Shown here one piece after another: positions 12,105 to 41,726 of a stretch of DNA of 64,000 nucleotides. How positions within the stretch are numbered: position 1 is the stretch's first letter; each line of letters starts with the position of its first letter. This stretch comes from Hafnia alvei (GTDB lineage Bacteria; Pseudomonadota; Gammaproteobacteria; Enterobacterales; Enterobacteriaceae): contig NZ_FMIQ01000064.1 in assembly GCF_900095695.1 (NCBI RefSeq), positions 35,837-99,836 on the forward strand, in the 5' to 3' direction. The translations under genes were made by a program, and so were the position numbers. The notes below the pieces were generated by a model. It ran no database searches. It worked only from the letters and a program-made list of their open reading frames with translations, and was not told the origin of the DNA.

Positions 12105-12517
12105 CGTGCCAGCTCGCCTAAGTCTTTGCTGTTGAACTCGATAATGCGCAGGCCGTATTTATCGTTAAGTACCACGACTTCTGCTTTGCCGAACAAAATG
12201 CCGTTCACCTTAATATCTAGCGGTTCGCCCGCAAGTTTGTCGAGTTCGATGACGGAATCGTTGTTAACCGTCATCAGCTCAGCCAAAGAGATCTCTACGG
12301 AGGCAACTTCTAAGGTTAAGGTGACCGGAATACGGCTAAAGAGCGACATTTTGCGCATCTTATCTAGCGAGCTTTCGGCGTTGCTGTCCTGCTGCAAATC
12401 GTAGCGAGGGGCACCGTCGCGATTCTGGCTTTCTGCCGTATCAGTCTGAGGAGCTTCAGACAGGTTGAAATCGTCGAAATTAAGATCCTGCGCCAGGTCG
12501 GTTTGTTGATCACTCAT
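12101..12517 (-). CDS. fliN: FliN, flagellar motor switch protein
   Basis: FliN forms the lower C-ring with FliM and helps bring export substrates to the gate. It has 138 residues. The first ~55 are acidic and low in complexity. The C-terminal SpoA domain carries VTLTLEVASVEISLAELM and the closing GKAEVVVLNDKYGLRIIEF. It overlaps fliM by 8 bp and fliP by 4 bp. Confidence 0.94.
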   Translation of the reverse strand: MSDQQTDLAQDLNFDDFNLSEAPQTDTAESQNRDGAPRYDLQQDSNAESSLDKMRKMSLFSRIPVTLTLEVASVEISLAELMTVNNDSVIELDKLAGEPLDIKVNGILFGKAEVVVLNDKYGLRIIEFNSKDLGELAR

Positions 12518-13385
12518 AGTTCATCTCGGTGGTTTTATCGTTGAATTCAGACAAGAACAATTTGCCGCGGTCTTCTGCTACCACGGCGCTAAACATCTGC
12601 TCTTTACCGATAAAGATAGGAAGCTGTTCATTCAACGAAATAGGAATGACATCGCCAGCTTCAATGTTTAATAATTGGGAAACCGTTAAATTTAAACTCG
12701 CCAAGCGGCCATTTAGCTTTAATGGTAAACCATAAAACATACGTTCAATTTGAGCGGGGGTAATATTTTCACGTGGCTGAGTTTCTTCGATTGGTCCACG
12801 CATATTAGATAGCATTTTATCCACGTGATGGTTATCTAATAGAATAGAGAATCCGCCTTTCTCATAACCTTCTAGCCAGAACGTAACGCAATAAGACCAT
12901 TGGCTAATTACCGTTGAGTAATCATTTTTAATTTCTAACGGTTCACCAAACGTTTCCTGATTGATAATTAATTGCGTTAATTCCTGAGCCAGTTTTGTTT
13001 TTAGTCGCTCTTCTGTTTTTGTTGTTGGTTGTTCTAAATCAGGAGATAGACGCGTGTTGTCTTTACTTAGACCGTAATAGTCATGAAGAATATCGAGCAA
13101 TAAAATACGGTCGATATCAAATGCAATATTGCCGTAAGGCGTAGAAAAAATTTGCGCGTTCTTGTAATTACAGTCCATTTTAAATGTCATTTTATTTAAC
13201 GCGACATTAACACGATATTTCTTTAAGAAATAAATACTCAGCTTGGCATCTAAGATGTCAAAGCAGTCGTTCATAATCTTTGGCAGTTTATGATAAGGAC
13301 GTCCAAGCTTATTCACTTCCAGCTTAACCAAGTCAGGATGCTGGCTTTTGTTGTGTATTCTGATTCTGTTTGCTGAAGGCTGCAT
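12510..13385 (-). CDS. fliM: FliM, flagellar motor switch protein lacking the CheY-binding N-terminus
   Basis: FliM links FliG and FliN in the C-ring. With 291 residues it is about 40 shorter than E. coli FliM. It starts directly in the middle domain (ISYFLKK-type helix, KMTFKMDCNYKNAQIFSTPYGNIAFDIDR) and ends in a SpoA domain. The N-terminal EIDALL-type motif that binds phosphorylated CheY is not visible. Together with the absence of che genes here, this suggests the lateral motor does not answer to chemotaxis. It is the first gene of the minus-strand operon. A sigma-54-like site lies about 90 bp upstream. Confidence 0.9.
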   Translation of the reverse strand: MQPSANRIRIHNKSQHPDLVKLEVNKLGRPYHKLPKIMNDCFDILDAKLSIYFLKKYRVNVALNKMTFKMDCNYKNAQIFSTPYGNIAFDIDRILLLDILHDYYGLSKDNTRLSPDLEQPTTKTEERLKTKLAQELTQLIINQETFGEPLEIKNDYSTVISQWSYCVTFWLEGYEKGGFSILLDNHHVDKMLSNMRGPIEETQPRENITPAQIERMFYGLPLKLNGRLASLNLTVSQLLNIEAGDVIPISLNEQLPIFIGKEQMFSAVVAEDRGKLFLSEFNDKTTEMNYE

Positions 13386-13472
13386 TTTTATTCCAAGTGT
13401 GACTTTCTTCTGGCAGCTTAAGCTTCTTCAGTCATACCCTGAATCGTGAAATATCTTGGGTACATCAAGGTT

Positions 13473-13489
13473 TGAATAGTGCTTGCCAA
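13473..13489 (-). promoter_or_regulatory. candidate sigma-54 promoter of the fliM operon (weak -12)
   Basis: On the minus strand TTGGCAAG-CACT-ATTCA has a perfect -24 element and the correct spacing, but the -12 element reads ATTC instead of TTGC. It lies about 90 bp upstream of the fliM start. The better sites before flgB and fliD make sigma-54 control of this operon plausible. Confidence 0.35.
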
Positions 13490-14059
13490 AAAATGTGTAA
13501 AAAAATTCATTTGTTACTTAAGTTATGATTTCAGTGAGTCGTACTATTTATTTGAGAGCCACAACTCTAAATCGATAATGCTCGACAATCTTCACAACAC
13601 ATCCTTTTTCACGGGAATAGGATTAAACCTGCATTCCACTTTCTATACAAGGGGGTTGGGCTTATTAATCTATTATTTTTATTAGATTAATATCCATTAA
13701 TAACTCTGTATCTTGCTGATTATCATGCCTTTATTTTTTAATACTCATTAAAAACAAGACAATGGTTAAGGTATCTATATACTCCATTTTATTGAATCGT
13801 CACCTAAGTAAACTAATCACTATGTTTATTAATTTTATGGCGATACGACTGAACTATAAATATGTTTTAGAATTGTTAACTAGAATGGATTGCCGGTAAC
13901 GAAGAGGGGTAAAGATATTTACTCTCTTTTAATGTGTCACTGCTTGTATAGAGAAAAACACGCTAAGGTTATCACCTTTGCAGCACGCATTAATACGGTA
14001 TTAAGATACCTGCATACTATATGCAGGCCACTCTCGGTTTATAGAGGCTGCAATACATA
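13490..14059. promoter_or_regulatory. AT-rich divergent spacer upstream of lafK
   Basis: This spacer between the divergent fliM and lafK transcripts holds no convincing gene; a 68-codon plus-strand frame at 13479-13685 has no ribosome site or recognisable product. Just upstream of lafK are two perfect palindromes: TAATAC-G-GTATTA at 13991-14003 and CCTGCATA-CTA-TATGCAGG at 14009-14027. They lie 33-69 bp before the lafK ATG and are good candidates for an operator controlling this master regulator. Confidence 0.5.
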
Positions 14060-17368: not shown

Positions 17369-18383
17369 TAGTCGAATCGGTTCGAACGCCAATAGCGAAC
17401 GTAGCCGCGTGGAGCAAGCCGCTATTTTGATGCTGAGCATTGGTGAAGCAGCGGCGGCAACCGTGATGCAAAAACTCAGCCGTGAGGAAGTGATTCGCAT
17501 CAGTGAAACCATGGCGCGCATGCACGGCGTTAAGGTGGCGCACGCTCGTCAGGCGATTAATAACTTCTTTCAAGATTATCAGGAGCAGAGCGGCATTAAC
17601 GGCGCCTCGCGAACTTACCTGCAAGGGATCTTGGAAAAATCACTCGGCGGTGAAATTGCCCGCAGCGTGATCAACGGTATTTATGGCGATGAAATTCGCT
17701 ATCGCATGGCGCGTTTGCAGTGGGTCGATATTCCCCAGTTAGCCGCGCTGATTGAGCAAGAGCACTTGCAGCTGCAGGCCGTGTTCTTGGCTTTCCTGCC
17801 GCCGGAAGTGGCTGCAGGTATTTTGACTTATCTGCCTGAAGAACGTCAGGACGAAGTGGTTTATCGCATCGCTAAGCTGGATGACGTGAACCGCGACGTC
17901 ATTGATGAACTGGATCGACTGATCGAACGCGGCGTTGCCGTGCTCTCAGAACACGGTTCGAAGGTCACCGGTATTAAGCATGCGGCAAACATTGTGAACC
18001 GTATTCCTTCTAACCAGCAGATTTTGTTAGACCAGCTGCGCGAGCGTGACGAAGAAGTGGTGGATGAGCTGAAAGATGAAATGTACGAATTCTTCATTCT
18101 TAGCCGTCAAAACACCGCCACGTTGCAGCGTCTGATGGATGAAATTCCGATCGAAGATTGGGCGGTGGCGCTGAAAGGCACCGAAACCGTTTTACGCCAG
18201 TCCATTTTCAACGTGATGCCAAAGCGTCAGGTTCAACTGTTGCAAAGCACCACGGCCCGCTTGGGCCCCGTGCCGGTTAGCCGTATTGAGCAGGTACGTA
18301 AAGAGATCATGAGCTCGGTGCGCTCGCTGGCTGAAGATGGCGAAATTCAGGTACAGCTCTTCGCTGAGCAAACGGTGGAATAA
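17343..18383 (+). CDS. fliG: FliG, flagellar motor switch/torque protein
   Basis: FliG is the rotor protein that meets the MotAB stator. It has 346 residues from the first ATG; an ATG at 17352 is an alternative. The N-terminal domain begins near SRVEQAAILMLSIGEAAAATVMQKL. The middle-domain EHSKTA-like helix and the C-terminal charged torque helix (LRQSIFNVMPKRQVQLLQ) are present. It overlaps fliF and is followed 5 bp later by fliH. Confidence 0.95.
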   Translation: MSVMAQNNSSRIGSNANSERSRVEQAAILMLSIGEAAAATVMQKLSREEVIRISETMARMHGVKVAHARQAINNFFQDYQEQSGINGASRTYLQGILEKSLGGEIARSVINGIYGDEIRYRMARLQWVDIPQLAALIEQEHLQLQAVFLAFLPPEVAAGILTYLPEERQDEVVYRIAKLDDVNRDVIDELDRLIERGVAVLSEHGSKVTGIKHAANIVNRIPSNQQILLDQLRERDEEVVDELKDEMYEFFILSRQNTATLQRLMDEIPIEDWAVALKGTETVLRQSIFNVMPKRQVQLLQSTTARLGPVPVSRIEQVRKEIMSSVRSLAEDGEIQVQLFAEQTVE

Positions 18384-18388
18384 CGGTT

Positions 18389-19168
18389 ATGCATAAAGAA
18401 AACCAAAAATCAGTTTTTGCACCGCTAAATAGCCGCCGTTCCGCTGCGCGTCAAAGTGCCGTTCCGCGCCAGCATAAGTTTCCGCCGTTGCGGAAAAGCT
18501 GGCAGAAAGCCAATGGCTTAGCGAGTGAAAGCGGCGACTTAATGCAGGCGCTCGATCCGGCAGAATATCAAAAGCAACTGATGGATGGTTTTCAGGACGG
18601 ATTAAACCGCGGCTTTGCTCAGGGTCTGGAAGAAGGCAAAGAGGAAGGCTATCAGGAAGGTGCGAATACGGGTTTTGAAGAGGGAATGCGCAAAGGTTTT
18701 GCCGAAGGCAAACTGGCGGGCAAACAGCAATTTATCGATGCCGCTGAGCCGCTTGATTCTCTCACCGCTCAGCTACAGCGTTATCTTGATGGCTATGAAC
18801 TTCGTCGCCGTGAAGAGCTGTTACAGCTGGTAGAAAAAGTGACACGTCAGGTGATCCGCTGCGAGCTGACATTACAGCCAACCCAGCTATTAACGCTGGT
18901 GGAAGAAGCGCTCAGCAGCCTGCCGCAGATCCCCGAACAGCTCAAGGTGTACCTCAACCCTGAAGAATTCCGCCGCATTAGCGAAGCGGAGCCTGAGAAG
19001 GCGCGCGAGTGGGGACTGTGTGCGGATGCGGATATGGCACCGGGCGAGTGTCGAGTAGTGACCGACACCTCCGAGATGGATGTTGGCTGCCAGCATCGCC
19101 TCGATCAGTGCATGGACGTGCTGCAAAGCAGCTTACTGCCTGATACCGCAGACGAGCTGGTTGCATGA
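18389..19168 (+). CDS. fliH: FliH, flagellar export ATPase regulator
   Basis: FliH is the stator-like partner of the FliI ATPase and links it to the C ring. It has 259 residues. The middle contains the typical glycine-spaced repeats (GFQDGLNRGFAQGLEEGKEEGYQEG), which form the GxxxG helical stalk, and a C-terminal globular domain follows. Its stop overlaps the fliI start by four bases (ATGA). Confidence 0.93.
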   Translation: MHKENQKSVFAPLNSRRSAARQSAVPRQHKFPPLRKSWQKANGLASESGDLMQALDPAEYQKQLMDGFQDGLNRGFAQGLEEGKEEGYQEGANTGFEEGMRKGFAEGKLAGKQQFIDAAEPLDSLTAQLQRYLDGYELRRREELLQLVEKVTRQVIRCELTLQPTQLLTLVEEALSSLPQIPEQLKVYLNPEEFRRISEAEPEKAREWGLCADADMAPGECRVVTDTSEMDVGCQHRLDQCMDVLQSSLLPDTADELVA

Positions 19169-20481
19169 TAAACACCGACTTTGAGCAGGCGCTAAAATCC
19201 ATTGAAAACATCAATCTGGCGCGTGTGGCCGGACGTTTGGTGCGAGTCAACGGCATTCTGCTGGAGTGCGTTGGCTGCCGCTTAGCGGTGGGGCAACTTT
19301 GCCGCGTAGAAAGCACTGAACATGAGTTGATGGATGCACAGGTTGTCGGCTTTGACCGCGATGTCACTTACCTGATGCCGTTCAAACACCCGGCCGGTTT
19401 AATTGCGGGCGCGCGCGTATTTCCAGCCGAAAAAGATGAAGGCGTGCTGATTGGCGATCAGTGGCTAGGCCGCGTGGTGAATGGATTAGGTGAACCGCTT
19501 GATGCCAAGGGCAAACTTGGCGGCGATACCTTATTACCTCAGCAAATTGCGCAAATTCACCCGCTGACGCGACGTCCGGTTGAAGAACCATTAGACGTTG
19601 GCGTGCGCGCTATTAATGGCCTGCTCACCATCGGTAAAGGGCAGCGTGTTGGTCTGATGGCCGGCAGCGGCGTGGGTAAAAGCGTGCTGCTTGGCATGAT
19701 CACCCGATATACCCAAGCAGAAGTCGTCGTGGTTGGATTAATCGGTGAGCGTGGCCGAGAAGTGAAAGAATTTATTGATAATTCGCTGGGCGCTGAAGGC
19801 ATGGCGAAGTCCGTGATCGTCGCGGCGCCGGCGGATGAATCGCCGCTGATGCGTATCAAAGCCACCGAGCTTTGCCACTCGATTGCCAGTTACTACCGCG
19901 ACAAAGGCAAAGACGTGCTCTTGCTGGTGGATTCACTCACCCGTTATGCGATGGCACAGCGTGAAATTGCGCTGTCATTGGGCGAGCCTCCGGCAACCAA
20001 AGGCTATCCGCCTTCGGCGTTTGGCATCATTCCCAAGCTGGTAGAAACCGCAGGCAACAGCACCGGTACAGGCACCATGACGGCAATTTATACGGTTCTG
20101 GCCGAAGGTGATGACCAGCAGGATCCGATAGTGGACTGCGCGCGAGCGGTGCTCGACGGGCATATCGTTTTGTCTCGCCATTTAGCAGAAGCGGGGCACT
20201 ATCCGGCAATTGATATTGGCCAGTCAATCAGCCGCTGTATGAGTCAGGTGACGCAACGCGATCACCAGCGTGCGGCACGTACCCTCAAACAGCTGTATGC
20301 CGAATATATGAGTATCAAACCGCTGATCCCTCTTGGTGGCTACGTCGCGGGAGCCGATCCCACGGCCGATCGCGCGGTAAAACTCTCCCCGGCGATCCAC
20401 AATTTCTTGCAGCAGGAAGTCTCAGACGCCGCGCTGCTTAACGGCACCATCAGCGATCTTTGCCTGCTGGCAAAGGCCTAA
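19165..20481 (+). CDS. fliI: FliI, flagellar export ATPase
   Basis: FliI is the F1-beta-like ATPase of the flagellar type III machine. It has 438 residues. The Walker A motif AGSGVGKS is at about 176-183 and Walker B is in KDVLLLVDSLTRYAMAQREIAL. The type III ATPase signature GEPPATKGYPPSAFG follows. It is coupled to fliH by an ATGA overlap and fliJ follows 16 bp later. Confidence 0.96.
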   Translation: MINTDFEQALKSIENINLARVAGRLVRVNGILLECVGCRLAVGQLCRVESTEHELMDAQVVGFDRDVTYLMPFKHPAGLIAGARVFPAEKDEGVLIGDQWLGRVVNGLGEPLDAKGKLGGDTLLPQQIAQIHPLTRRPVEEPLDVGVRAINGLLTIGKGQRVGLMAGSGVGKSVLLGMITRYTQAEVVVVGLIGERGREVKEFIDNSLGAEGMAKSVIVAAPADESPLMRIKATELCHSIASYYRDKGKDVLLLVDSLTRYAMAQREIALSLGEPPATKGYPPSAFGIIPKLVETAGNSTGTGTMTAIYTVLAEGDDQQDPIVDCARAVLDGHIVLSRHLAEAGHYPAIDIGQSISRCMSQVTQRDHQRAARTLKQLYAEYMSIKPLIPLGGYVAGADPTADRAVKLSPAIHNFLQQEVSDAALLNGTISDLCLLAKA

Positions 20482-20497
20482 CTCGATAGGTATTTCT

Positions 20498-20935
20498 ATG
20501 AGCAAGATGATTTCAACGCTGGAACAGCTGCGCCAACTACGTAACCGTGCGGTACAGGACATCAGCGGAAAGCTCTCCTCACAGAAGCAGCTTTGCCAGC
20601 GCTATGAACGCAACATCGCTGCGCTCACTGAGCTTTCGGCCGGAGTGCCACAGCTACAGGGAAGTTCGGCACTGCTGATGAACAACCAGTCTGGCTACAA
20701 GAAAAACATTCAGCGCGTAATCGAATGGCAAAGACAGGAACAGGCGCTGGCGGATATTCAGGCTAAGCAGCTACAGGCAGATTTAGTTCACGAAGCTCGC
20801 CGTGAAAAAAGCGTGGAGCTGGTACTCGAACAGCGCCGTGATTTTGTGGCGCGCGAACGTGAGCGACAGGCTCAAAAAGTGACTGATGCGATCTCGACCC
20901 AGTGCTGGTTGCGCCGTCAGGCCGCGACGCGTTAA
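20498..20935 (+). CDS. fliJ: FliJ, flagellar export coiled-coil protein
   Basis: FliJ is a small coiled-coil protein that activates the FliI ATPase and recycles chaperones. It has 145 residues, mostly heptad-like helix rich in Gln, Arg, Glu and Ala (for example EWQRQEQALADIQAKQLQAD). Sequence identity in this family is low, so position after fliI is a main support. The cargo block begins right behind it. Confidence 0.85.
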   Translation: MSKMISTLEQLRQLRNRAVQDISGKLSSQKQLCQRYERNIAALTELSAGVPQLQGSSALLMNNQSGYKKNIQRVIEWQRQEQALADIQAKQLQADLVHEARREKSVELVLEQRRDFVARERERQAQKVTDAISTQCWLRRQAATR

Positions 20936-20954
20936 TCAGATACGGTACATAAGT

Positions 20955-22409
20955 GTGAAAAATAAACTGAATAATAAAAAAAATACGTCGTCGAATTTGA
21001 TGAACCATTTGCTCCAACGCCAGGGAAATCATCGGATTGAAGGCGAACAACCTTTTGTGAGCGTGGTGTGTCCGAGCTACAACCGCCGCGAATTTTTGCC
21101 CTATTTACTCTATATCTATCAATATCAAGATTATCCAGCCGATCGTCGTGAGCTGATTATCATCGATGATTCGCCACACAGCAGCCAAGATCTGGTTGAT
21201 ATGCTGGTTGACCCTAGCACGGAGAACGTACGCTATATCCACAGCGAGCGTCGTCTGATGCTGGGTGAAAAACGCAACATGCTCAATGATCTGGCTAACG
21301 GTGAATATATCGTCTGTTTCGACGATGATGACTACTATTCGCCGCAAAAAATCTCTTATCAGGTGGATGAACTCCAGCGCAACAACGCGCTGTTTTCTGG
21401 TTCAGATCAGATCTACGTTTGGTACAGCCATCTCAATAAAATCTATCGCACTCACCCTTTTGGGCCGAACCATGCGCTCAACGGTACTTTTGCCTATCAC
21501 AAAAAATTTCTCAGAAAGCATCGCTATGAGCATGAGGCGATGCTGGCTGAAGAGCAGGGCTTTCTGAATAATTTTACCGCGCCGGTATTACAAATTGATC
21601 CCAAGCGCGCCATTTTGTGTGTATCGCACAGTGCGAATACCTATGACAAAGATTACATCATGTCGAGCTGTGAGCCGGTTGAGCTAACGCTGGAAGACTT
21701 TGTTCAAGATACCAATTTGCTGGCGCATTACCGCCGCCTAAGCCTGACACCTTCGACCCAGCCTGTTTATTGGGAGTGTTTTGAGAAAGTGGTGGTGCTA
21801 TTTGACCCCGCTAGTGAAGCCGATTTGCCCGATCGTTGTCAGGCGCTGATGGCGTTTGGTATCCCCTCTGAACGGCTGATTTGTGTGCCTAAACGAGCGG
21901 AATCAACGCGAGAGATTTCGCAGCTCACCACGCATTGCCACGTACTGGAGCAGGCGCAGCAGCAGGGATGGCGCAACGTATTGATTTTGGACGCCGACAT
22001 TCAGTTCGTGAAAAAAGAGAATACGGTTGCCAACGTCAACGGTTTGCTCCAAGCCTTACGCAACATCGAATGGAACGTGGTGCTGTTGGGGGCGAAGCAT
22101 TTTGAGATGCACCTGATGGAAAGCCTGCCGTCTGTTGGCCGAGTTTATGACGCACTTTGCGGCTGCGCGTATGCCGTCAATAGCAACTATTTCAATACAT
22201 TACTGACCCACTACCGTGAATGTTTAACCTCGTTGCAAGCGGGTGCTGAACCCAAAGCCGCACGCATGGATATGCGCTGGAAAGAGCTGATGCAACAACA
22301 TTGCTGGCTGGCATTTCACCCCAGCTTTGCTTACCTGAACCGTGATTGGGATTACTTGCAGGATAAAGAAATTGACTGCACTCACTGGTTCTTTAGAAAA
22401 CCTAAGTAA
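20955..22409 (+). CDS. two-domain glycosyltransferase (GT2 plus GT25-like), flagellar cargo
   Basis: This protein probably transfers sugars, likely to flagellin given its place in the flagellar locus. From the GTG at 20955 it has 484 residues; ATG 21000 (469 residues) is also possible, and neither has a good ribosome site. The N-terminal half is a GT-A family 2 domain: FVSVVCPSYNRREFLPYLL, then ELIIIDDSP and the metal-binding run CFDDDDYYSP near residue 125. The C-terminal ~180 residues resemble GT25-type enzymes: WRNVLILDADIQF, WNVVLLGAKHFE and a CGCAYAVNSNYF segment. The usual LEDD is replaced by LDAD. Donor and acceptor are unknown. Confidence 0.75.
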   Translation: MKNKLNNKKNTSSNLMNHLLQRQGNHRIEGEQPFVSVVCPSYNRREFLPYLLYIYQYQDYPADRRELIIIDDSPHSSQDLVDMLVDPSTENVRYIHSERRLMLGEKRNMLNDLANGEYIVCFDDDDYYSPQKISYQVDELQRNNALFSGSDQIYVWYSHLNKIYRTHPFGPNHALNGTFAYHKKFLRKHRYEHEAMLAEEQGFLNNFTAPVLQIDPKRAILCVSHSANTYDKDYIMSSCEPVELTLEDFVQDTNLLAHYRRLSLTPSTQPVYWECFEKVVVLFDPASEADLPDRCQALMAFGIPSERLICVPKRAESTREISQLTTHCHVLEQAQQQGWRNVLILDADIQFVKKENTVANVNGLLQALRNIEWNVVLLGAKHFEMHLMESLPSVGRVYDALCGCAYAVNSNYFNTLLTHYRECLTSLQAGAEPKAARMDMRWKELMQQHCWLAFHPSFAYLNRDWDYLQDKEIDCTHWFFRKPK

Positions 22410-22448
22410 AGAGCTGCGTGCAAAGGCGTTGTTCTGGAGAAGATTGAA

Positions 22449-23393
22449 ATGCAACTGATTGAAAGTTATCAGCCTGAATATGTGGCTCGTTTTGCGGCGC
22501 TTCAGGAGACGTGCGTCTGCCCTAAGTGTAAAACCGAGCAGGGCGAATACCCGCGTGTCACTCAACGCTTCAAGAATCAAGAGCGCGAAAGCCTGATGCT
22601 GGGCTGTGAGAGCGCGGTGCGCGAGACATTGCTCAACCCTGAGGCTTTTGTGTTACATCCAGTTCAAACACAGGCTATGGCGGAAGACGCTCTCAGCCCG
22701 TGGCTAGAGCAGGTGAATCAGCAGTGCATCAATTTAACCATTCAGCGCGCCATGAACCTAGAGTGCAGCCTGTATGCCATCGGCGTGCTGTTGAGCAAAG
22801 CGCAAACTTTGTCAGAGCAAGGCGATGAATCCTGCTCGCAGATAGCTTCAATGGGTGAACAGCTGATGTTGTTGGCCGATCAAGGCGTGCTACAACAGCA
22901 ACTGGGTATGTTACCGCCGATTGTGGATAGCCGACTGGAAGCGCTGCAAGGCATGGGCGCGCTACGCCTGAATCTGAATCTGCCTTTGGCGCAAAAAATG
23001 CCGATGATGCTGAAGCTCAGCGAGCTAAGCATTATGCAGCCAGCACGTTTAGCGGAACGCTTGCAGGAGCTGGAGGCTGCTTGGCAGACGCAAACTCTCT
23101 TTACCGAACAGCCACATATTTTGCGCAATGCGTTGCTGTACAGCCTATATCACCACGTATTCCCTGGTATTGATGCTAAGAACTATGGCGAGTCATTCTT
23201 GGTTCTCGCGCGTCATTTCTTCCGCCTGAAAATGCTGTGCGCGATGTGGTTAACCGATAACGAACAGCTAACCGAAGAAAACGTGGTGACGCTGTTTAGC
23301 GCGTATTTTGCCTGGCAGTCCACGGAAACGGTGCCGTTCAATGCCGATCACACCGCGGATTACAGTTTGCTGACGGGGTTGGCGCTGATTTAG
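22449..23393 (+). CDS. short FliB-like protein (flagellin lysine-N-methylase family)
   Basis: FliB methylates lysines on flagellin. This 314-residue protein aligns with the family from YQPEYVARF at its start, then YPRVTQRF (residues 34-41) and SLMLGCESAVRETLLNPEA, and continues into the helical C-terminal half. It seems to lack the 80-90 residues that normally lie between the first two blocks and hold the CxxxCC-type cluster; only C22, C24 and C27 (CVCPKC) remain. AGAAG lies close upstream of the ATG. It follows the glycosyltransferase in the position of the variable lafV-type gene of Flag-2 loci. Activity as a methylase is uncertain. Confidence 0.65.
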   Translation: MQLIESYQPEYVARFAALQETCVCPKCKTEQGEYPRVTQRFKNQERESLMLGCESAVRETLLNPEAFVLHPVQTQAMAEDALSPWLEQVNQQCINLTIQRAMNLECSLYAIGVLLSKAQTLSEQGDESCSQIASMGEQLMLLADQGVLQQQLGMLPPIVDSRLEALQGMGALRLNLNLPLAQKMPMMLKLSELSIMQPARLAERLQELEAAWQTQTLFTEQPHILRNALLYSLYHHVFPGIDAKNYGESFLVLARHFFRLKMLCAMWLTDNEQLTEENVVTLFSAYFAWQSTETVPFNADHTADYSLLTGLALI

Positions 23394-23412
23394 CTGAGAT
23401 ATGAATTAACGT

Positions 23413-24534
23413 ATGACCATTAATGTAGATTTTTTATTTCAGTGGGCTCCTGGCTGGACAAACTATGAGTCAGTGATCGCTGTTCTTCAGAGTGATAAGC
23501 GATTTTGTTGTCGTTTAATCTTATTACCGTTCCACCATAGTGGAGTGTTAGATCATGAGAACAGAGAAGCTAGAGAGTTTTTAGAGCAGCGCGAAATTGA
23601 TTATATTTGGCATGAGGACTACGATTTTGCTAACAAAAGGCCAGATTTGGTCTTTATACAAAATCCCTATGACTTCACACGACCAGAGCGTTTTTCTTGT
23701 CTTGAGCTCAAACGAGAAAATATAAAATTTGCCTATATTCCCTATGGTCTCGATGTTGGTGATGGCGAGCAGAATCTCTCATACCAATACAATATGGATT
23801 GCCATAATCTAGCGAGTTGGATATTTGTAAGGTCGTCCCAGCATAAGCATTTCTTTAAAAAGTATTGCGCGGCGGGTAACAAAAAAGTTCATGTTACTGG
23901 GCATCCGAAATTTGATGCTTACCGAAAATATCAGAATGTGAATGTAGAGAGAAAAACGCCTCATACTCCGGTTCTACTTTGGACTCCTCATTTTTATGAA
24001 GAGGGGCGCAAAGGGTGGTCAACGTTCAAGGTTTATTGTATGGCTATGCTATTTATGGCCATTAATTATCCGATAAAACTTATTATCAGGCCACATCCTC
24101 TATTTATGGGGAGACTTAGGCTTTGTAATGGTGAGGTAGTTGAAATGTTCAAAAACCTCATTAGCTACGCTAAGACGTACGAAAATATAACTTTTGATAT
24201 GAATCCATCGTATCAGGATTCATTTCTTAACGCTGATGCGCTGCTTGCTGATGCAGGTTCATTCTTGCTTGAATTCTTGCCGTCAAAAAAACCGATACTC
24301 TATCTCACTCATTCTGAGTGTCGGGGATTAAATGAAAGCGCAAAGTTTATCCATGAAAGCCATTATGTGGCTAGCGACGAGCAGGATATTGATGATTTTG
24401 TGAAAATGCTGCTAGCTAATGATGATCCTAAATATGATTTGCGTATGCAGGCTTTGAAAGAAAATATCTTTATTCCAGAGAAAAGCGTCGGGGATGAAAT
24501 ACGCAAGGTTTTATTAAGTCAGGTGAGAAAATGA
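23413..24534 (+). CDS. TagF-like CDP-polyol phosphotransferase
   Basis: The 373-residue protein resembles the catalytic domain of CDP-glycerol glycerophosphotransferases (TagB/TagF), which transfer polyol phosphate from a CDP donor. Visible family blocks are VTGHPKFDAYRK, VLLWTPHFYEEGRKG, LIIRPHPLF (the HP active-site His) and ADALLADAGSFLLEFLPSKKPILYL. There is no signal peptide or strong membrane helix. It is AT-richer than the flagellar genes around it and has no clear ribosome site. Its stop overlaps the next gene by four bases. It may place a phosphodiester-linked group on a flagellin glycan; the substrate is unknown. Confidence 0.7.
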   Translation: MTINVDFLFQWAPGWTNYESVIAVLQSDKRFCCRLILLPFHHSGVLDHENREAREFLEQREIDYIWHEDYDFANKRPDLVFIQNPYDFTRPERFSCLELKRENIKFAYIPYGLDVGDGEQNLSYQYNMDCHNLASWIFVRSSQHKHFFKKYCAAGNKKVHVTGHPKFDAYRKYQNVNVERKTPHTPVLLWTPHFYEEGRKGWSTFKVYCMAMLFMAINYPIKLIIRPHPLFMGRLRLCNGEVVEMFKNLISYAKTYENITFDMNPSYQDSFLNADALLADAGSFLLEFLPSKKPILYLTHSECRGLNESAKFIHESHYVASDEQDIDDFVKMLLANDDPKYDLRMQALKENIFIPEKSVGDEIRKVLLSQVRK

Positions 24535-25268
24535 CTACATCAAGAATTTATGGCGATCGGCAGATTGAGTTAGATAGCCAAAGTATTTATCAGTTTTTTG
24601 AAGGTCGAGCAGAAGAAAAAGATAAGCTGAAAATGACAATGTACCAGCCTCATGACATCTCTTCTGCCCGAGATTTACATGAGAAAAATGTCATTTTACC
24701 TAAACTACGCCTTTCCAATGATGCCAAGGTTCTCGACGTGGGCTGCGGTAATGGTCGTTGGTATGATTCACTGTCAAATTATGGTGTCAGTTATGTTGGA
24801 GTAGATTTTTCTCCCTCATTGATTGCAATCGCCAATGATACCTACGCTGCGGATGAAAATTGCACATTTATCACGCTTAAAGCTGATGATGTTTCATCTC
24901 ATTTAATGATTAATGGTGATTTTTTTAGCCACGCTATCGTTTCTGGTGTCATGATTTATTTGAGCGATCTTGAAATAACCAGAATGCTTAAAGGCATTGC
25001 GAGTTGTACTACCCGGGGTAGCCTAATTTATATTAGAGAGCCTGTGGGTATCGAACGTAGATTGACACTAAATAAACATTGGTCGGATGAGCTTAACTCT
25101 CATTACAGTGCGATATATCGCACTAAGCAGGAGTTAATAGACTGTGTTTGCCATCAAGATGAAAGCTCACTGTCGATTAAATTGATAGATTCAGGGTTAA
25201 TGTATGACTCTACATTAAATAACCGTAGTGATACCCAACAGATGTTTTTCATTTTTGAATGCCTATGA
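24531..25268 (+). CDS. class I SAM-dependent methyltransferase, flagellar cargo
   Basis: This 245-residue protein has the SAM-binding motif VLDVGCGNGRWYDSL at about residues 67-81, followed by VSYVGVDFSPSLIAIA (acidic residue for the ribose) and a motif around FSHAIVSGVMIYLSD. The start overlaps the preceding stop (ATGA). What it methylates cannot be read from the sequence: a sugar, an amine or a phosphate ester are all possible. Its genes on both sides point to modification of an activated small molecule or glycan rather than RNA. Confidence 0.75.
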   Translation: MTTSRIYGDRQIELDSQSIYQFFEGRAEEKDKLKMTMYQPHDISSARDLHEKNVILPKLRLSNDAKVLDVGCGNGRWYDSLSNYGVSYVGVDFSPSLIAIANDTYAADENCTFITLKADDVSSHLMINGDFFSHAIVSGVMIYLSDLEITRMLKGIASCTTRGSLIYIREPVGIERRLTLNKHWSDELNSHYSAIYRTKQELIDCVCHQDESSLSIKLIDSGLMYDSTLNNRSDTQQMFFIFECL

Positions 25269-25870
25269 ATACACTATTTTGTTTTGATCTGGATGGGACA
25301 CTCACGCGCAGAGAGCTGCTTCCGCTGATTGCTGCGGAAGTGGGTTTAGAGCACGAGTTTGACGTGTTGACTAAGTTGACTATTGACGGTGTGATTAGTT
25401 TTGAAGAGTCTTTGCGTTTACGCTTTGCAATCCTAAAAACAATTTCGATAGACAAAGTACAGAACGTTATTGCAGAAGCAGAGTTATTCAAAAATTTAAT
25501 CAGCTTCATAAAAGAACGAAAAGACTCATGCTATGTAATAACTGGAAACCTCGATGTTTGGATTCGTCCTCTGATGGAGTCGATTGGCTGTAATTATTTA
25601 TGTTCAAAAACAAATTCAGAGGGAGATAAACTCATATCCCTCGATTACATCATGCATAAAGGCCAAGCTATATCAAAATTACGCCAGTTATTTCCCAATC
25701 GAGTGGTCGTCGCTATTGGCGATGGAAATAACGACTATGAGATGTTCGAAGCGGCAGATAAGTCTATTTCTGTTGGACTAACGCATAACCCTAGTCCGAA
25801 CCTTATCGCTGTTTCTGATTATATTGTTTATCATGAGGATTCACTATGTCGACTATTAAACACGCTGTAA
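25265..25870 (+). CDS. HAD-family phosphatase (phosphoserine-phosphatase-like), flagellar cargo
   Basis: The protein belongs to the HAD IB group. Motif I is FDLDGTLT at residues 6-13, motif II is the VITGN region, and motif III/IV is AIGDGNNDYEMFEAA. It should remove phosphate from a small metabolite. I start it at ATG 25265, which forms an ATGA overlap with the methyltransferase stop (201 residues); ATG 25259 would add two residues. It overlaps the next gene by 25 bp. The phosphatase may supply or trim the alcohol that the neighbouring nucleotidyltransferase activates. Confidence 0.75.
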   Translation: MNTLFCFDLDGTLTRRELLPLIAAEVGLEHEFDVLTKLTIDGVISFEESLRLRFAILKTISIDKVQNVIAEAELFKNLISFIKERKDSCYVITGNLDVWIRPLMESIGCNYLCSKTNSEGDKLISLDYIMHKGQAISKLRQLFPNRVVVAIGDGNNDYEMFEAADKSISVGLTHNPSPNLIAVSDYIVYHEDSLCRLLNTL

Positions 25871-26511
25871 TTGCGGCTGCTGGGTTGGGCAGTCGCCTTG
25901 GAATGGGGTGTCCAAAATGCCTAATAAAAATCAACGGAACGCCTTTAATTGCCTATCTTCTCAAGCTATTAGAGGATGTTGAAGATGTAAGAATTGTGGT
26001 TGGCTATCAAGAGCAAGAAGTGATGGAGTGTGTTTTACGCTATCGCAAAGATATTACTTTTGTTAGAAATCCAAACTATCGTACAACATCTACATTAACG
26101 AGTTATTTTATGGGGGCTGAAGGGATATCTGAGCGTTGCATGTTTATGGATGCTGATATTATCTTCCAACCTGAGTCATTTATAGGCTTCAAACAGTTTT
26201 GCGCAGAAAATAATAGGCAGGATATTATCGGCGTGACAGCAGCCAAAACGCGTGATGCTGTTTATGTTTCGCTAGATAATGAAAAGGTATCATCGTTTTC
26301 AAGAGAAAATATCACTGAGTTTGAGTGGGCAAATCTTTGCTACATTTCTTCGAGCCTGCTCACGAAACAGGGGGATTCTGTTTTCCAACAGCTATCTCAG
26401 TATTTGCCCTTAATGAGCTATCAGATAAAATCGTATGAAATTGATACTAAATGCGATTTATTAACGGCGACTGAGTCTCAGGTTGCTGAGGATGTTTACT
26501 ACTGTATGTAG
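25846..26511 (+). CDS. LicC-like nucleotidyltransferase, flagellar cargo
   Basis: The 221-residue protein has a nucleotidyltransferase fold. The nucleotide loop AAGLGSRLGMGCPKCLI is at residues 11-27, then VVGYQEQEV, the block NPNYRTTSTLTSYF and the metal-binding FMDADIIF (D102, D104). This pattern resembles CTP:phosphocholine and related cytidylyltransferases (LicC, PntC type) more than MobA. It probably makes the CDP-activated donor for the TagF-like enzyme upstream. A GAGGA ribosome site lies 6 bases before the ATG. It is the last cargo gene, ending at a hairpin facing flgN. Confidence 0.72.
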   Translation: MSTIKHAVIAAAGLGSRLGMGCPKCLIKINGTPLIAYLLKLLEDVEDVRIVVGYQEQEVMECVLRYRKDITFVRNPNYRTTSTLTSYFMGAEGISERCMFMDADIIFQPESFIGFKQFCAENNRQDIIGVTAAKTRDAVYVSLDNEKVSSFSRENITEFEWANLCYISSSLLTKQGDSVFQQLSQYLPLMSYQIKSYEIDTKCDLLTATESQVAEDVYYCM

Positions 26512-26523
26512 TGTATTCGAAAA

Positions 26524-26584
26524 TAAACCGCCTTATATCGATTACCTTGTATTGATTAGCATGTATCGATTAAAAGACGGTTTA
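26524..26584. terminator. long hairpin between convergent cargo and flgN genes
   Basis: TAAACCG (26524-26530) pairs with CGGTTTA (26578-26584), and inner ATCGAT repeats can extend the stem. It separates the convergent cargo and flgNMA transcripts and could terminate from both sides. T tracts are weak. Confidence 0.45.
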
Positions 26585-26598
26585 CTCATGCAAAAAAC

Positions 26599-27036
26599 TC
26601 ACCCTTCCTGATACAAATAAGCTTCCGGCTGGGCGGCATTAATCAGGTTATTCACAATATCCTGCTGCATGTGCAGCATCACGCCGTTGCGCTCATTGAT
26701 TTCTTTACAGCGTTTGGCCTGTTGCTCAAGATCAGCCCACAGTGCGTTGACCTTAGGCTGATGCTGTTCGGGCAGGCGAGCAAAAAGATCGGTGATGCCT
26801 TTACGTCCTCCGGCAACGCCCAGAGACTGTAAAATGTCATGCCGTTTTTGCGCGCTTTCTGTCAGGCGCTGGTAGTTTTCGACCAGCTCATGGTTGAGCG
26901 TGCTGAGATCGTCGGCGTTGCGCGCAATAATGTAGGCGCGCTGCTTTTCGAGTTGGCCGATAAGCTCAATATAGATCTTTCGGTCACTGACGATATCTTG
27001 AACTAGCGTATTAACCTTTTGCGCAGGCGTAGTCAT
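26599..27036 (-). CDS. flgN: FlgN, chaperone for FlgK and FlgL
   Basis: FlgN is the cytosolic export chaperone of the hook-filament junction proteins. The 145-residue protein is helical, with the family core LIGQLEKQRAYIIARNADDLSTLNHE followed by LLQSLG-like KRHDILQSLGV and the C-terminal region QQDIVNNLINAAQPEAYLYQ. It lies 9 bp downstream of flgM, in the flgA-flgM-flgN order on the minus strand. Confidence 0.88.
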   Translation of the reverse strand: MTTPAQKVNTLVQDIVSDRKIYIELIGQLEKQRAYIIARNADDLSTLNHELVENYQRLTESAQKRHDILQSLGVAGGRKGITDLFARLPEQHQPKVNALWADLEQQAKRCKEINERNGVMLHMQQDIVNNLINAAQPEAYLYQEG

Positions 27037-27045
27037 ATTCCCTTT

Positions 27046-27318
27046 CTATCCTTTGTAATATTTCTCTATGGCGAGCGTGAGTTCGTCCAGATTGATGTCA
27101 ATTTTTCCGGCGCTGATGGCGTCTTTCATCGCGTTAACGCGATCCATATCGACTTCCGGCATAGCCGCAAGTTGCCCCTGCGCTTCACCCAGCACGGGAT
27201 CAACCGATGTGGTGGCCTGAGTACGTAAGGTGGTCGCAGACTCTGCATTGGCACTCTTGGTGTTTGCAGTATTGTTGACGGCCTGAGTCAGGTTGTACTG
27301 GGTTGGCGTTACTTTCAT
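27046..27318 (-). CDS. flgM: FlgM, anti-sigma-28 factor
   Basis: FlgM binds the flagellar sigma factor (LafS/FliA, 46493) and is exported when the hook is complete, freeing sigma for flagellin genes. The 90-residue protein has a disordered Ser/Thr/Ala-rich N-terminus and the family C-terminus VDMDRVNAMKDAISAGKIDINLDELTLAIEKYY. A 166-bp gap separates it from flgA and holds a motif shared with the flagellin promoters, so it likely has its own class-3-type promoter. Confidence 0.92.
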   Translation of the reverse strand: MKVTPTQYNLTQAVNNTANTKSANAESATTLRTQATTSVDPVLGEAQGQLAAMPEVDMDRVNAMKDAISAGKIDINLDELTLAIEKYYKG

Positions 27319-27443
27319 TGCATCTCTCCGAAACGGGTATCCCGTTGGTCATTTTCTGTCTGGCTGCGCAAGGTTAACCACTCGTTTTATCGATTTAGAG
27401 TATCGACTAGAGGCGGAAGTCTTCCTTCCATACCCAACTATAG

Positions 27444-27467
27444 CGACCAGCCAACAGCAAAACTTAA
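27444..27467 (-). promoter_or_regulatory. putative LafS (sigma-28-type) promoter of flgM
   Basis: On the minus strand TTAA and GTCG are separated by exactly 16 bases. The same TTAA-N16-GTCG arrangement precedes both flagellin genes. It lies 126 bp upstream of the flgM start. Known sigma-28 promoters have a TAAA-N15-GCCGATAA pattern, so this would be a lateral-system variant. Confidence 0.45.
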
Positions 27468-27484
27468 TTATCCACGCAAAAACT

Positions 27485-28306
27485 TTACTGGCCCGGTGCG
27501 TACAGCATTCGCACGACGCCAATATTGTCGACAACGGCGCTGACCACACGCTGGCTGCTTTCGTTTTTCACTTTGATCATGTCGCCTTTACGGCCTTTTT
27601 TCATCGCTTCGCCCATGGTGCGAGCCTCGATGCCGTCTTGTTCGGCAATCATAACGACGCGCTGGCCGCGATCGACCATGATGGGCTGATCGAGCTGGGC
27701 AGGGCTAATCGGCTGTAAATCGCGAATGCGGCGTTTCACCGTTAACCCCACAACGTCGTCAGGATTGGTGATGACCCCCGCACGGCTGCTGGAGATATTG
27801 CGTTTTTTTAACTCGATATCAGAAGGGGAGATGACCGCACCGCGCTCAAGGGTGTTCTTCGCCACAACCACCGGTAAATAGATATCCGGTTTCACGGTTA
27901 CGTCGACCTCCCACCCGTTGGCATCTTCACAGCGAATGTCATAACGCAGACGGCTCAAATCGCGTTTATCTCCCGTGGGCAGCGCGGCCTGCAACGGCTG
28001 AGAGCAAACCCGATAGCCGCTGACCTCTGACGGAATAAACACGTTCATTTTCGCATTGAAATCTTTCCAATTTTTACGTTTGGCTTCGCGATTGATATCG
28101 GCCGTGGCCACTTCCACCGCGAGGGCATAAATCTGCTTGCGCGCGCTAGACGTGCTGGGCTTGGCGGTTTCTTTCATCGCCCAGCCGGAGGCGAGCGGAA
28201 GGGTACACAGCCCGAAAACCACAAGGGCTCGGCCAAGGGCATGCTGCGGAAGGAAAGAATGTTTCCTAGTGTGGCTAACTTTAGACGTAACTTGTTTAAA
28301 AATCAT
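27485..28306 (-). CDS. flgA: FlgA, P-ring assembly chaperone
   Basis: FlgA is the periplasmic chaperone for FlgI. The 273-residue precursor has an N-terminal stretch of about 25 residues ahead of a signal-like hydrophobic segment (ALVVFGLCTLPLASGWA), which is longer than usual; a later start was not evident. The C-terminal SAF-like domain carries AKNTLERGAVISPSDIELK and RGQRVVMIAEQDGIEARTMGEAMKKGRKGD. It is divergent from flgB across a 100-bp spacer with a sigma-54 promoter facing flgB. Confidence 0.9.
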   Translation of the reverse strand: MIFKQVTSKVSHTRKHSFLPQHALGRALVVFGLCTLPLASGWAMKETAKPSTSSARKQIYALAVEVATADINREAKRKNWKDFNAKMNVFIPSEVSGYRVCSQPLQAALPTGDKRDLSRLRYDIRCEDANGWEVDVTVKPDIYLPVVVAKNTLERGAVISPSDIELKKRNISSSRAGVITNPDDVVGLTVKRRIRDLQPISPAQLDQPIMVDRGQRVVMIAEQDGIEARTMGEAMKKGRKGDMIKVKNESSQRVVSAVVDNIGVVRMLYAPGQ

Positions 28307-28319
28307 ATTGTTATAACTC

Positions 28320-28334
28320 TGGCATGGTAATTGC
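28320..28334 (+). promoter_or_regulatory. sigma-54 promoter of the flgBCDEFGHIJKL operon
   Basis: TGGCATG-GTAA-TTGC has the invariant GG (28321-28322) and GC (28333-28334) exactly 10 bases apart, as in the consensus TGGCACG-N4-TTGC. A start of transcription near 28345 would leave a leader of about 60 bases before flgB. LafK is the likely activator. Confidence 0.8.
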
Positions 28335-28406
28335 TATATCAGTGGCGGACAGCAGTAAATGACAGAGAAACAACATTTTACAACGACGTGATGAGAGGAA
28401 GTTTCA

Positions 28407-28757
28407 GTGGGCTTAAGTTTTGACAAGGCATTAGGTGTTCATCCACAGGCGGTACAGCTTCGACTTTCCCGAGCAGAGCTGTTATCGGCGAACTTAGCTA
28501 ACGTCGACACCCCAAACTTTCAGGCTAAAGATATTGATTTTGCCGCTGAGATGCAACGTTCGAGTTTGAACTTTTCGACCAACAACTCGGCAGAACTCAA
28601 ATATCGCGTGCCTTATCAGCCCGCTAGCGATGGCAACACCGTTGCTCTGGACGTTGAGCAGGCTGAGTTCTCGAAAAACGCGCTGGATTACCAAACCAGC
28701 TTAGCGTTTTTAAACATGAAGTTTGTGGGCCTTAAAAAGGCAATTGACGGTAAGTAA
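28407..28757 (+). CDS. flgB: FlgB, proximal rod protein
   Basis: FlgB is a component of the proximal rod. The 116-residue protein starts at a GTG with AGAGGAAG upstream; no in-frame ATG fits. The rod-family motif LSRAELLSANLANVDTPNFQAKDIDF is near the N-terminus. It heads the rod-hook operon. Confidence 0.94.
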   Translation: MGLSFDKALGVHPQAVQLRLSRAELLSANLANVDTPNFQAKDIDFAAEMQRSSLNFSTNNSAELKYRVPYQPASDGNTVALDVEQAEFSKNALDYQTSLAFLNMKFVGLKKAIDGK

Positions 28758-28779
28758 TTGATTTAGGTAACAACGGACA

Positions 28780-29205
28780 ATGGCATTTACGGATATTTAT
28801 CGCGTTTCTGGTTCAGCAATGACGGCGCAAACCGTCCGTCTGAACACCATCGCCAGTAATCTGGCGAACGCGGAGTCGCCAGCGGACAACGAGGGGGCCG
28901 TGTATAAAGCTCGCCGCCCCGTGTTTGCCGCGGTGTACCAAAACAGCGAGCTGATGGACAACAAAGCCTTGGCCGGCGCGCGTGTGCAAATTATGGACGT
29001 GGTTGAAACCGGTGGCGCAGTGCAGCGCTATGAGCCGAATCATCCCATGGCCAACGATCAGGGTTATGTCTTTTATCCCGACGTTAACGTTGTGGAAGAG
29101 ATGGCCGACATGATGTCGGCATCCCGTAGCTTCGAGACTAACGTCGAAGTTCTTAACAGTGTGAAAAGTATGCAGCAGAGCCTGCTGAGACTTGGAGAAG
29201 CCTAA
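28780..29205 (+). CDS. flgC: FlgC, proximal rod protein
   Basis: FlgC is the second proximal rod protein, 141 residues. It has the N-terminal IYRVSGSAMTAQTVRLNTIASNLANAES motif and the C-terminal VEEMADMMSASRSFETNVEVLNSVKSM motif that form the rod coiled coil. It follows flgB by 22 bp and flgD starts 2 bp after its stop. Confidence 0.95.
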   Translation: MAFTDIYRVSGSAMTAQTVRLNTIASNLANAESPADNEGAVYKARRPVFAAVYQNSELMDNKALAGARVQIMDVVETGGAVQRYEPNHPMANDQGYVFYPDVNVVEEMADMMSASRSFETNVEVLNSVKSMQQSLLRLGEA

Positions 29206-41517: not shown

Positions 41518-41540
41518 TATCCCGCATTACTCTCGTGAAG

Positions 41541-41564
41541 ACACCGCCTAAGGGCGGTGTTTTT
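41541..41564 (+). terminator. Rho-independent terminator of flagellin gene 1
   Basis: ACACCGCC and GGCGGTGT form an 8-bp stem with a TAAG loop, followed by TTTT. It ends the first flagellin transcript and so makes each flagellin gene its own unit. Confidence 0.9.
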
Positions 41565-41640
41565 GTATCTATCAGGTAACCATTATTAGCCGATGAATAT
41601 TAGCCAATAAAAATTTTGTTTAATTTTTTTATCATCTGAT

Positions 41641-41664
41641 TTAATTCTCAGAGTCTGTGTGTCG
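41641..41664 (+). promoter_or_regulatory. putative LafS (sigma-28-type) promoter of flagellin gene 2
   Basis: TTAA (41641-41644), 16 bases, GTCG (41661-41664), exactly 1,100 bp after the copy-1 motif. The leader hairpin GGAATC/GATTCC recurs at 41688-41709. Confidence 0.55.
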
Positions 41665-41726
41665 TTTTCTATAAGTACGAGAGATGCGGAATCTAAATAG
41701 GTGGATTCCCTGAAGGAGACGACACA

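Follow-up and report, generated by a model that had tools for sequence, protein, structure and literature searches.

A four-gene cassette in a Hafnia alvei lateral flagellar locus, homologous to C. difficile type A flagellin-modification genes and predicted to add a phospho-amino acid to flagellin sugar

Introduction

Two flagellin modifications described in other bacteria are the closest known relatives of the system reported here, a set of four AT-rich genes lying between fliJ and flgN in the lateral (Flag-2 type) flagellar locus of Hafnia alvei; the locus is contained in the 64-kb stretch of DNA that we analysed, hereafter “the window”. In Clostridioides difficile, published mutants show that cd0241-cd0244 are required for N-acetylglucosamine (GlcNAc)-P-N-methylthreonine, with cytidine diphosphate (CDP)-threonine as the hypothetical donor; mutants lacking CD0244 still carry the core GlcNAc, and for CD0241 a phosphoserine:threonine phosphotransfer is proposed (PMC10714395). 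The b-type flagellin of Pseudomonas aeruginosa PAO1 carries deoxyhexose-P-N,N-dimethylthreonine, dependent on pa1088-pa1091 (PMC11833859). According to a 2014 account, P. aeruginosa PAO1 was the one organism in which orthologues of CD0241, CD0242 and CD0243 clustered within a flagellar locus, and no organism had an orthologue of CD0244 alongside them (PMC4441256).

The slot itself is also in print. De Maayer et al. (2020) describe it as VR1, between lfiJ and lfgN, report it in 28/28 Flag-2 loci of Hafniaceae, and propose teichoic-acid-like Flag-2 flagellin glycopolymers from the presence of TagB/TagD genes; the position (FliJ and FlgN on either side) is the same as in the window, and the cargo they list (GT2, LafV, TagB-like and methyltransferase genes) resembles ours (PMC6993521). 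The main text of that paper has 0 mentions of “phosphatase”, “nucleotidyl”, “threonine”, “difficile” or “Pseudomonas”; its supplementary tables, outside this check, may list genes under other names.

Each of the four AT-rich genes of the window has a homologue among the C. difficile type A genes. We consider it fairly probable that together they produce an N-methylated amino acid, likely threonine, in CDP-activated form, and that a TagF-like enzyme would move its phospho-amino-acid part onto a sugar that the glycosyltransferase (GT) of the same slot likely puts on the lateral flagellins.

Results and discussion

Gene content of the slot

Six cargo open reading frames (ORFs), all on the + strand, separate fliJ from flgN. 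The features concerned are:

20498-20935, + strand: fliJ (FliJ by Pfam), upstream border of the slot
20955-22409, + strand, GTG start: two-domain glycosyltransferase, N-terminal GT2 and C-terminal GT25-like
22449-23393, + strand: lafV, FliB/LafV-type flagellin lysine N-methylase (NF038110)
23413-24534, + strand: TagF-like CDP-alcohol phosphotransferase, CD0244-like (PF04464, Glyphos_transf)
24531-25268, + strand: S-adenosylmethionine-dependent methyltransferase, CD0243/PA1088-like (Methyltransf_25)
25259-25870, + strand: HAD-IB enzyme of the phosphoserine-phosphatase type, CD0241/PA1089-like (HAD, HAD-IB)
25846-26511, + strand: LicC-like nucleotidyltransferase, CD0242/PA1090-like (NTP_transf_3, IspD)
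23393-26597, strand not assigned: exchangeable cassette, without blastn homology to the slot of genome G002
26599-27036, - strand: flgN (FlgN by Pfam), downstream border of the slot
40627-42617, + strand: lafA1 and lafA2, the presumed acceptor flagellins, 283/296 residues identical

A first-pass annotation of this DNA had described six non-structural genes splitting the lateral flagellar locus, the last four overlapping one another by 4-25 bp and AT-richer than their surroundings, with families assigned from motifs. All of this holds. The ORF coordinates and the Pfam assignments of the borders confirm the split; the ORF coordinates give overlaps of 4, 10 and 25 bp among the four cassette genes (23413-26511); and the profile searches place the Glyphos_transf, methyltransferase, HAD and NTP transferase families all over cut-off. 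The GC content of the four genes is 0.385-0.399 each and 0.392 together, against 0.480-0.558 for the seven other genes measured (glycosyltransferase 0.480, FliB 0.526, FliI 0.558, FliJ 0.548, FlgN 0.509, FlgE 0.528, LafA1 0.529), though a FliM/FliN-type gene of the window is also low, at 0.378. The FliB/LafV gene has normal GC and is a constant part of the slot, outside the AT-rich cassette. The reading of the four AT-rich genes as an acquired cassette is supported, as an inference. A promoter and terminator scan gave 8 promoter-like sites (12.0 in shuffles) and 12 terminator-like sites (7.0 in shuffles), and no claim here draws on it.

Homology to the type A cluster

On the C. difficile contig used for comparison (L068, strain CD10-165), the flagellin gene is followed by genes for a GT2 enzyme, a HAD enzyme, a nucleotidyltransferase, a methyltransferase and a Glyphos_transf protein; from this gene content and order we infer a type A cluster, in a strain other than 630. 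All four cassette proteins are homologous to proteins of this contig: the nucleotidyltransferase with 40% identity over 205 aa (E 4e-40), the HAD enzyme with 39% over 202 aa (E 9e-41), the methyltransferase with 31% over 252 aa (E 6e-37) and the TagF-like protein with 26% over 380 aa (E 2e-24). As in the cd0240-cd0244 cluster described for C. difficile 630 (PMC4441256, PMC10714395), the four activities stand together beside flagellar genes. The window differs in its gene order, in its lateral flagellar locus, in carrying the genes as an exchangeable cassette, in its nucleotidyltransferase, which falls in a separate clade, and in its glycosyltransferase, which is GT2-GT25-like where that of C. 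difficile is GT2-TPR. The pa1088-pa1091 set of PAO1, likewise Gram-negative, has the same predicted activities by the paper's description; it differs from the window in serving a single flagellum, whose flagellin has two sites (PMC11833859).

Families and predicted substrates of the four enzymes

The protein encoded at 23413-24534 matches Glyphos_transf at 29.3 bits (cut-off 22.1), and its family profile finds only TarL, of GT-B fold, in the PDB; the profile alignment to TarL, which covers part of the protein only, aligns the histidine of the RPHP region. The Glyphos_transf family and the GT-B fold are shared with TagF and TarL, the Gram-positive teichoic acid polymerases; unlike them, the window enzyme has a flagellin sugar as its predicted acceptor and a CDP-amino acid as its predicted donor, and would not be expected to polymerise. 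It would transfer a phospho-amino acid from CDP to the sugar. The protein could instead resemble UDP-GlcNAc 2-epimerase, in which case the set would build a modified sugar donor and no phosphodiester. The fold of the model fits that epimerase slightly better than TagF, a comparison that is ambiguous and was dropped as a discriminator between phosphotransferase and epimerase. By sequence, PF04464 is the only family matched at E 0.01 or better, with no match to the Epimerase_2 Pfam family at that threshold; the restriction of the profile to TarL and the persistence of core GlcNAc after loss of CD0244 (PMC10714395) likewise speak against an epimerase, which we regard as highly improbable.

The methyltransferase matches Methyltransf_25 at 46.3 bits (cut-off 27). 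Its top hits among PDB structures, to phosphoethanolamine N-methyltransferases, are weak (E 6e-9), and none of their individual segments passes by itself. Its predicted role is N-methylation of the amino acid.

The HAD enzyme matches HAD at 43.9 bits (cut-off 27) and HAD-IB at 84.6 bits (cut-off 45), aligns to the phosphoserine phosphatase (PSP) structure 1f5s at E 7e-19, and reaches 77.9 of the 144 bits set for the SerB equivalog, below that cut-off. Its E19, F48 and R55 line up with PSP E20, F49 and R56, which we take to be the residues binding the amino acid, E20 and R56 holding it. Across the 75 aligned HAD enzymes, those of the window and of C. difficile included, the residues of the Methanocaldococcus jannaschii PSP are kept in 72 (E20), 72 (F49) and 73 (R56), while the position of S99 is threonine in 74; the lysine of HAD motif III lacks a clean alignment and plays no part in the argument. 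Because the amino-acid pocket residues are kept, a phospho-amino acid is favoured over a polyol or choline and is, from sequence, the more likely cargo; the enzyme would make or handle phosphothreonine.

The nucleotidyltransferase matches NTP_transf_3 at 50.6 bits and IspD at 36.0 bits (cut-off 27 for both). The top solved structures found by its profile are 6pd1 (nucleotidyl transferase/aminotransferase; E 1.8e-14), presumably an enzyme of the CTP:2-aminoethylphosphonate type, and 1jyk (CTP:phosphocholine cytidylyltransferase; E 3.7e-11). The two clades of its tree both conserve R49, N75, S86, D102, D104, E160, W161 and D200, the one in 41-42 of its 42 sequences and the other in 32-34 of its 34. 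The predicted product is a CDP-activated amino acid.

These structural matches also bear on a CDP-activated amino-alcohol, which would place choline- or ethanolamine-like, for instance phosphocholine-like, groups on the flagellin sugar. Both 1jyk and 6pd1 are compatible with it, as are the phosphoethanolamine N-methyltransferases found by the methyltransferase and the label “choline kinase” borne at source by several nucleotidyltransferase homologues. No choline/ethanolamine kinase family was found in the six cargo proteins, to which this search was limited; with the HAD enzyme of PSP type, its amino-acid pocket residues kept, and with threonine used by the closest chemically solved cluster (PMC10714395), we think an amino-alcohol unlikely.

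Somewhat further from the evidence is a CDP-polyol for a teichoic-acid-like glycerol or ribitol phosphate, the general reading of Flag-2 loci put forward by De Maayer et al. The Glyphos_transf family, the IspD match of the nucleotidyltransferase, the TagB/TagD orthologues that further strains have in VR1 (PMC6993521) and the IspD-SDR fusion in one VR1 slot (L132, see below) all suit it. The six cargo proteins contain neither a TagD-type family nor a reductase domain, the methyltransferase and the PSP-type HAD enzyme have no evident place in such a route, and it is the type A set that each of the four genes matches, which makes a polyol in the window very unlikely. Of the first-pass proposal of a CDP-activated, methylated compound attached by a phosphodiester to sugar from the two-domain glycosyltransferase, the general scheme can be retained as a prediction, whereas its polyol or amino-alcohol cargo is less supported, given the PSP-type HAD enzyme and the use of threonine in the nearest solved pathway (PMC10714395, PMC11833859).

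Exchange of the cassette within the genus and family

Comparison with a genome of the same genus (G002, locus L123) shows most clearly what is constant in the slot and what is not. By blastn, G002 aligns to window positions 18001-23392 at 93.2% and to 26598-29054 at 95.4%, with nothing between; homology breaks at 23392, within the stop codon of lafV, and restarts at 26598, at the 3' end of flgN. The G002 slot holds five other genes, together of 39.2% GC, encoding a Glyphos_transf protein (23.3 bits, cut-off 22.1), a GT2 enzyme, a DegT aminotransferase, an ATP-grasp protein and a sulfatase-family protein. The decoration module has been replaced as a block inside one genus, a swap and not a mere insertion. 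The window cassette is kept in a genome of the same species (G253; 99.35% over 12 kb) and in another of the same genus (G001; 92.8% over 12 kb), and the four activities occupy the same slot in Kluyvera (L005) and Dryocola (L006); because of this, the presence of the cassette in the slot is not chance.

How widely this extends was followed through the glycosyltransferase, found in 34/295 genomes of the family. The slot was inspected, for ORFs >450 bases only, in 33 of these 34 (all but G190; the window is the slot of G000) and in G001 and G022, with L005 and L122, whose contigs are both of 82,814 bases and whose scores are equal, treated as one locus. In 19/35 genomes (the 34 plus G001) Glyphos_transf is matched at E up to 0.001 within 5 kb of the glycosyltransferase, in 16 of them over the Pfam cut-off, as against 3/14 controls; G190, whose glycosyltransferase is the last gene-sized feature before its contig stops and whose Glyphos_transf is on a different contig, is not among the 19. 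Among other slots of the family, L125 has two Glyphos_transf genes and L126 one; L124 and L131 lack Glyphos_transf and carry other glycosyltransferases and methyltransferases; and L128, L130, L133 and L148 show no ORF of the inspected length besides the glycosyltransferase and FliB. The slot of L132 has a GT25-TagF fusion adjoined by an IspD-SDR fusion (L132:5543-7012, - strand), which we take to be the domain pair of CDP-ribitol synthases; a CDP-ribitol route for flagellin decoration is likely there. A close nucleotidyltransferase is present in only 3/295 family genomes, five weak matches (E 5.4e-6 to 9.3e-9) not being counted as orthologues. A TagF-like match was seen in 3/60 genomes of relatives, and a class-wide scan at E 1e-15 gave 2/369 genomes, the window's own genome being included in both counts.

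From these slots we tentatively propose, at somewhat less than even confidence, that the lafV-flgN interval is a “cap-swapping” site, at which the constant glycosyltransferase would supply the core glycan, to be capped through different phosphodiesters by whichever CDP-X cassette occupies the site. The interchangeable cassettes would provide CDP-methylthreonine in the window, a CDP-ribitol-like donor in L132, CDP-glycerol in those strains of the 2020 survey that have TagD, and still others in G002 and G290. If so, recombination in the constant flanks could switch the surface chemistry of the filament with the flagellin untouched.

Three possibilities were set aside. A close E. coli source was rejected, 20955-26511 being without a megablast match; as to plasmid carriage, TagF-like matches occur on 4 plasmid records only, at 23.5-25.9% identity, none covering 80%; and a capsule or teichoic TagF elsewhere in the genome was rejected, the Glyphos_transf match in the slot being the sole match to PF04464 in this genome. 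ORFs without a Pfam match lie on the opposite strand in VR1 at L122:10598-11401 (-, 267 aa) and L006:6411-7283 (-, 290 aa).

Gene linkage and fusions across genomes

The cassette genes are linked well beyond the family. Among 76 nucleotidyltransferase loci on genome contigs (L080, at 38 bits, is counted here and omitted from the tree and the nucleotidyltransferase alignment), a HAD gene lies directly upstream on the same strand in 70, a lower bound because the two share one ORF in L067 and L075. Within 4 kb of the nucleotidyltransferase there is a methyltransferase gene in 46 loci and a TagF-like gene in 48, and HAD, methyltransferase and TagF occur together in 33, of several phyla. Flagellar neighbours were detected by phmmer with 13 window proteins; the flanks searched reached no further than 10 kb and often stopped sooner at contig ends, so that the counts are lower bounds: at least 18/76 loci have a flagellar gene, and at least 14 of the 33 complete sets, C. 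difficile among them.

The remaining 58 of the 76 loci, Bacteroidales and Streptococcus ovis included, have no flagellar gene detected in the flanks examined, and the pathway therefore probably also serves other glycans. This raises the question of whether the window genes themselves act on lipopolysaccharide (LPS), capsule or exopolysaccharide and stand in a flagellar locus by chance. We consider that distinctly unlikely: the arrangement fliJ-glycosyltransferase-lafV on one side and flgN on the other is the same in the window, G253, G001, Kluyvera and Dryocola, relatives of the slot's own glycosyltransferase are fused to Glyphos_transf, and flagellar genes accompany 14 of the 33 complete sets. 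We came upon no capsule or LPS locus in which the four genes have an unrelated, proven product, though no search aimed at such proof was made. Adjacent HAD-nucleotidyltransferase pairs without a detected flagellar neighbour lie at loci of Bacteroidales, Streptococcus ovis and Akkermansia (L047, L050, L058, L060, L062, L065, L070, L071), and this module is probably used for other surface glycans.

Protein fusions link the same activities in relatives. TagF-methyltransferase fusions occur in Kluyvera and Dryocola; among the best 120 of 149 TagF homologues, counted by eye, 42 carry a methyltransferase Pfam domain and 31 a GT25 Pfam domain. The C-terminal domain of the window glycosyltransferase is found fused to a close TagF relative (GT25-TagF) in L120 and L132, its residues 268-483 aligning to the GT25 part of these proteins at 103-105 bits. 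In L137, GT2, a GT25 match (21.4 bits, below its cut-off) and Glyphos are in one protein; PAO1 likewise has glycosyltransferase and phosphotransferase in one protein, which are separate genes in the window.

A second arrangement was seen at fifteen loci (L136-L141, L143-L147, L149-L152), where flgN and usually a FliB-like gene lie beside a protein of 835-905 aa that starts with the glycosyltransferase; fliJ-fliI are on the other strand where they fall within the stretch examined. The window glycosyltransferase aligns to the first part of all 15 long proteins checked, leaving ~350-420 residues, in which PF04464 is found in 7/15 (5 over cut-off) and the window TagF family profile finds 1/15. These loci may belong to a further flagellar system that is decorated on the same principle.

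Predicted pathway

The glycosyltransferase matches Glycos_transf_2 at 70.2 bits (cut-off 23.3), and its nearest homologue among the matches listed is from Hafnia alvei, 94% identical. Its structure model (pLDDT 87.7) has as top PDB matches two-domain glycosyltransferases such as COLGALT1, with a low whole-model TM score of 0.36-0.41. In the predicted pathway this GT2-GT25 enzyme would O-glycosylate LafA1/LafA2, adding the core sugar or sugars. The HAD enzyme would yield phosphothreonine, by analogy with the proposal for CD0241 and as the weakest step; the nucleotidyltransferase would turn this into CDP-threonine; the methyltransferase would N-methylate the amino acid once or twice; and the TagF-like enzyme would form the sugar-phosphate-(N-methyl)threonine diester with release of cytidine monophosphate. 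Lysine methylation of that flagellin, a step separate from the cassette, is the predicted role of the LafV/FliB enzyme.

Several observations weigh against this pathway, in addition to the ambiguous fold of the TagF-like model, the rarity of the close nucleotidyltransferase and the 58 loci without a detected flagellar gene. The nucleotidyltransferases of the window and of C. difficile fall in two clades separated by a branch of 0.93 (SH-aLRT 100%), and their substrate could therefore differ; P. aeruginosa is unplaced in this tree. The window glycosyltransferase has no blastp match at E 0.01 on contig L068, a GT2 enzyme being present in both. In G001 the cassette methyltransferase is in two overlapping frames (L119:8444-9210), through either genuine inactivation or a sequencing error. 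The decoration could also be aimed at a third flagellin match of the genome, which lies elsewhere than the locus (41% over residues 1-200). Formation of phosphothreonine is no more than a proposal in C. difficile as well, and product and flagellin target are predicted here from sequence.

The first-pass annotation knew of no description of a teichoic-acid-like or phosphocholine-like decoration of a Gram-negative lateral flagellin, a view that is less supported: the same enzyme set is known to act on flagellin in C. difficile and P. aeruginosa PAO1 (PMC10714395, PMC11833859), and teichoic-like Flag-2 glycans were proposed for this very slot in 2020 (PMC6993521). Our literature search found no paper linking Flag-2 cargo to the type A/b-type phospho-threonine pathway. 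A type A-like set in the lateral flagellar locus of enterobacteria goes beyond the PAO1-only flagellar report of 2014, and would give the “teichoic-like Flag-2 glycans” a named chemistry that can be put to the test and whose mass is predicted. Relatives with fused glycosyltransferase, phosphotransferase and methyltransferase should be useful for enzymology.

Other features of the locus

The FliB/LafV protein matches the lysine N-methylase model NF038110 at 95.9 bits (cut-off 85), the single match in this genome (0/14 control genomes have one); the match spans model positions 98-359 of 373, with the N-terminal positions 1-97 unmatched. The flagellin genes lie at 40627-41517 (lafA1) and 41727-42617 (lafA2), and 9 of the 13 residues in which their products differ are at 188-226, likely the exposed centre. 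Finally, the window has a second AT-rich place, the FliM/FliN-type switch gene of the structural set at 12510-13385 (- strand), with 37.8% GC; the adjoining 13386-14059 has 33.4% GC, against 49.8% for the window.

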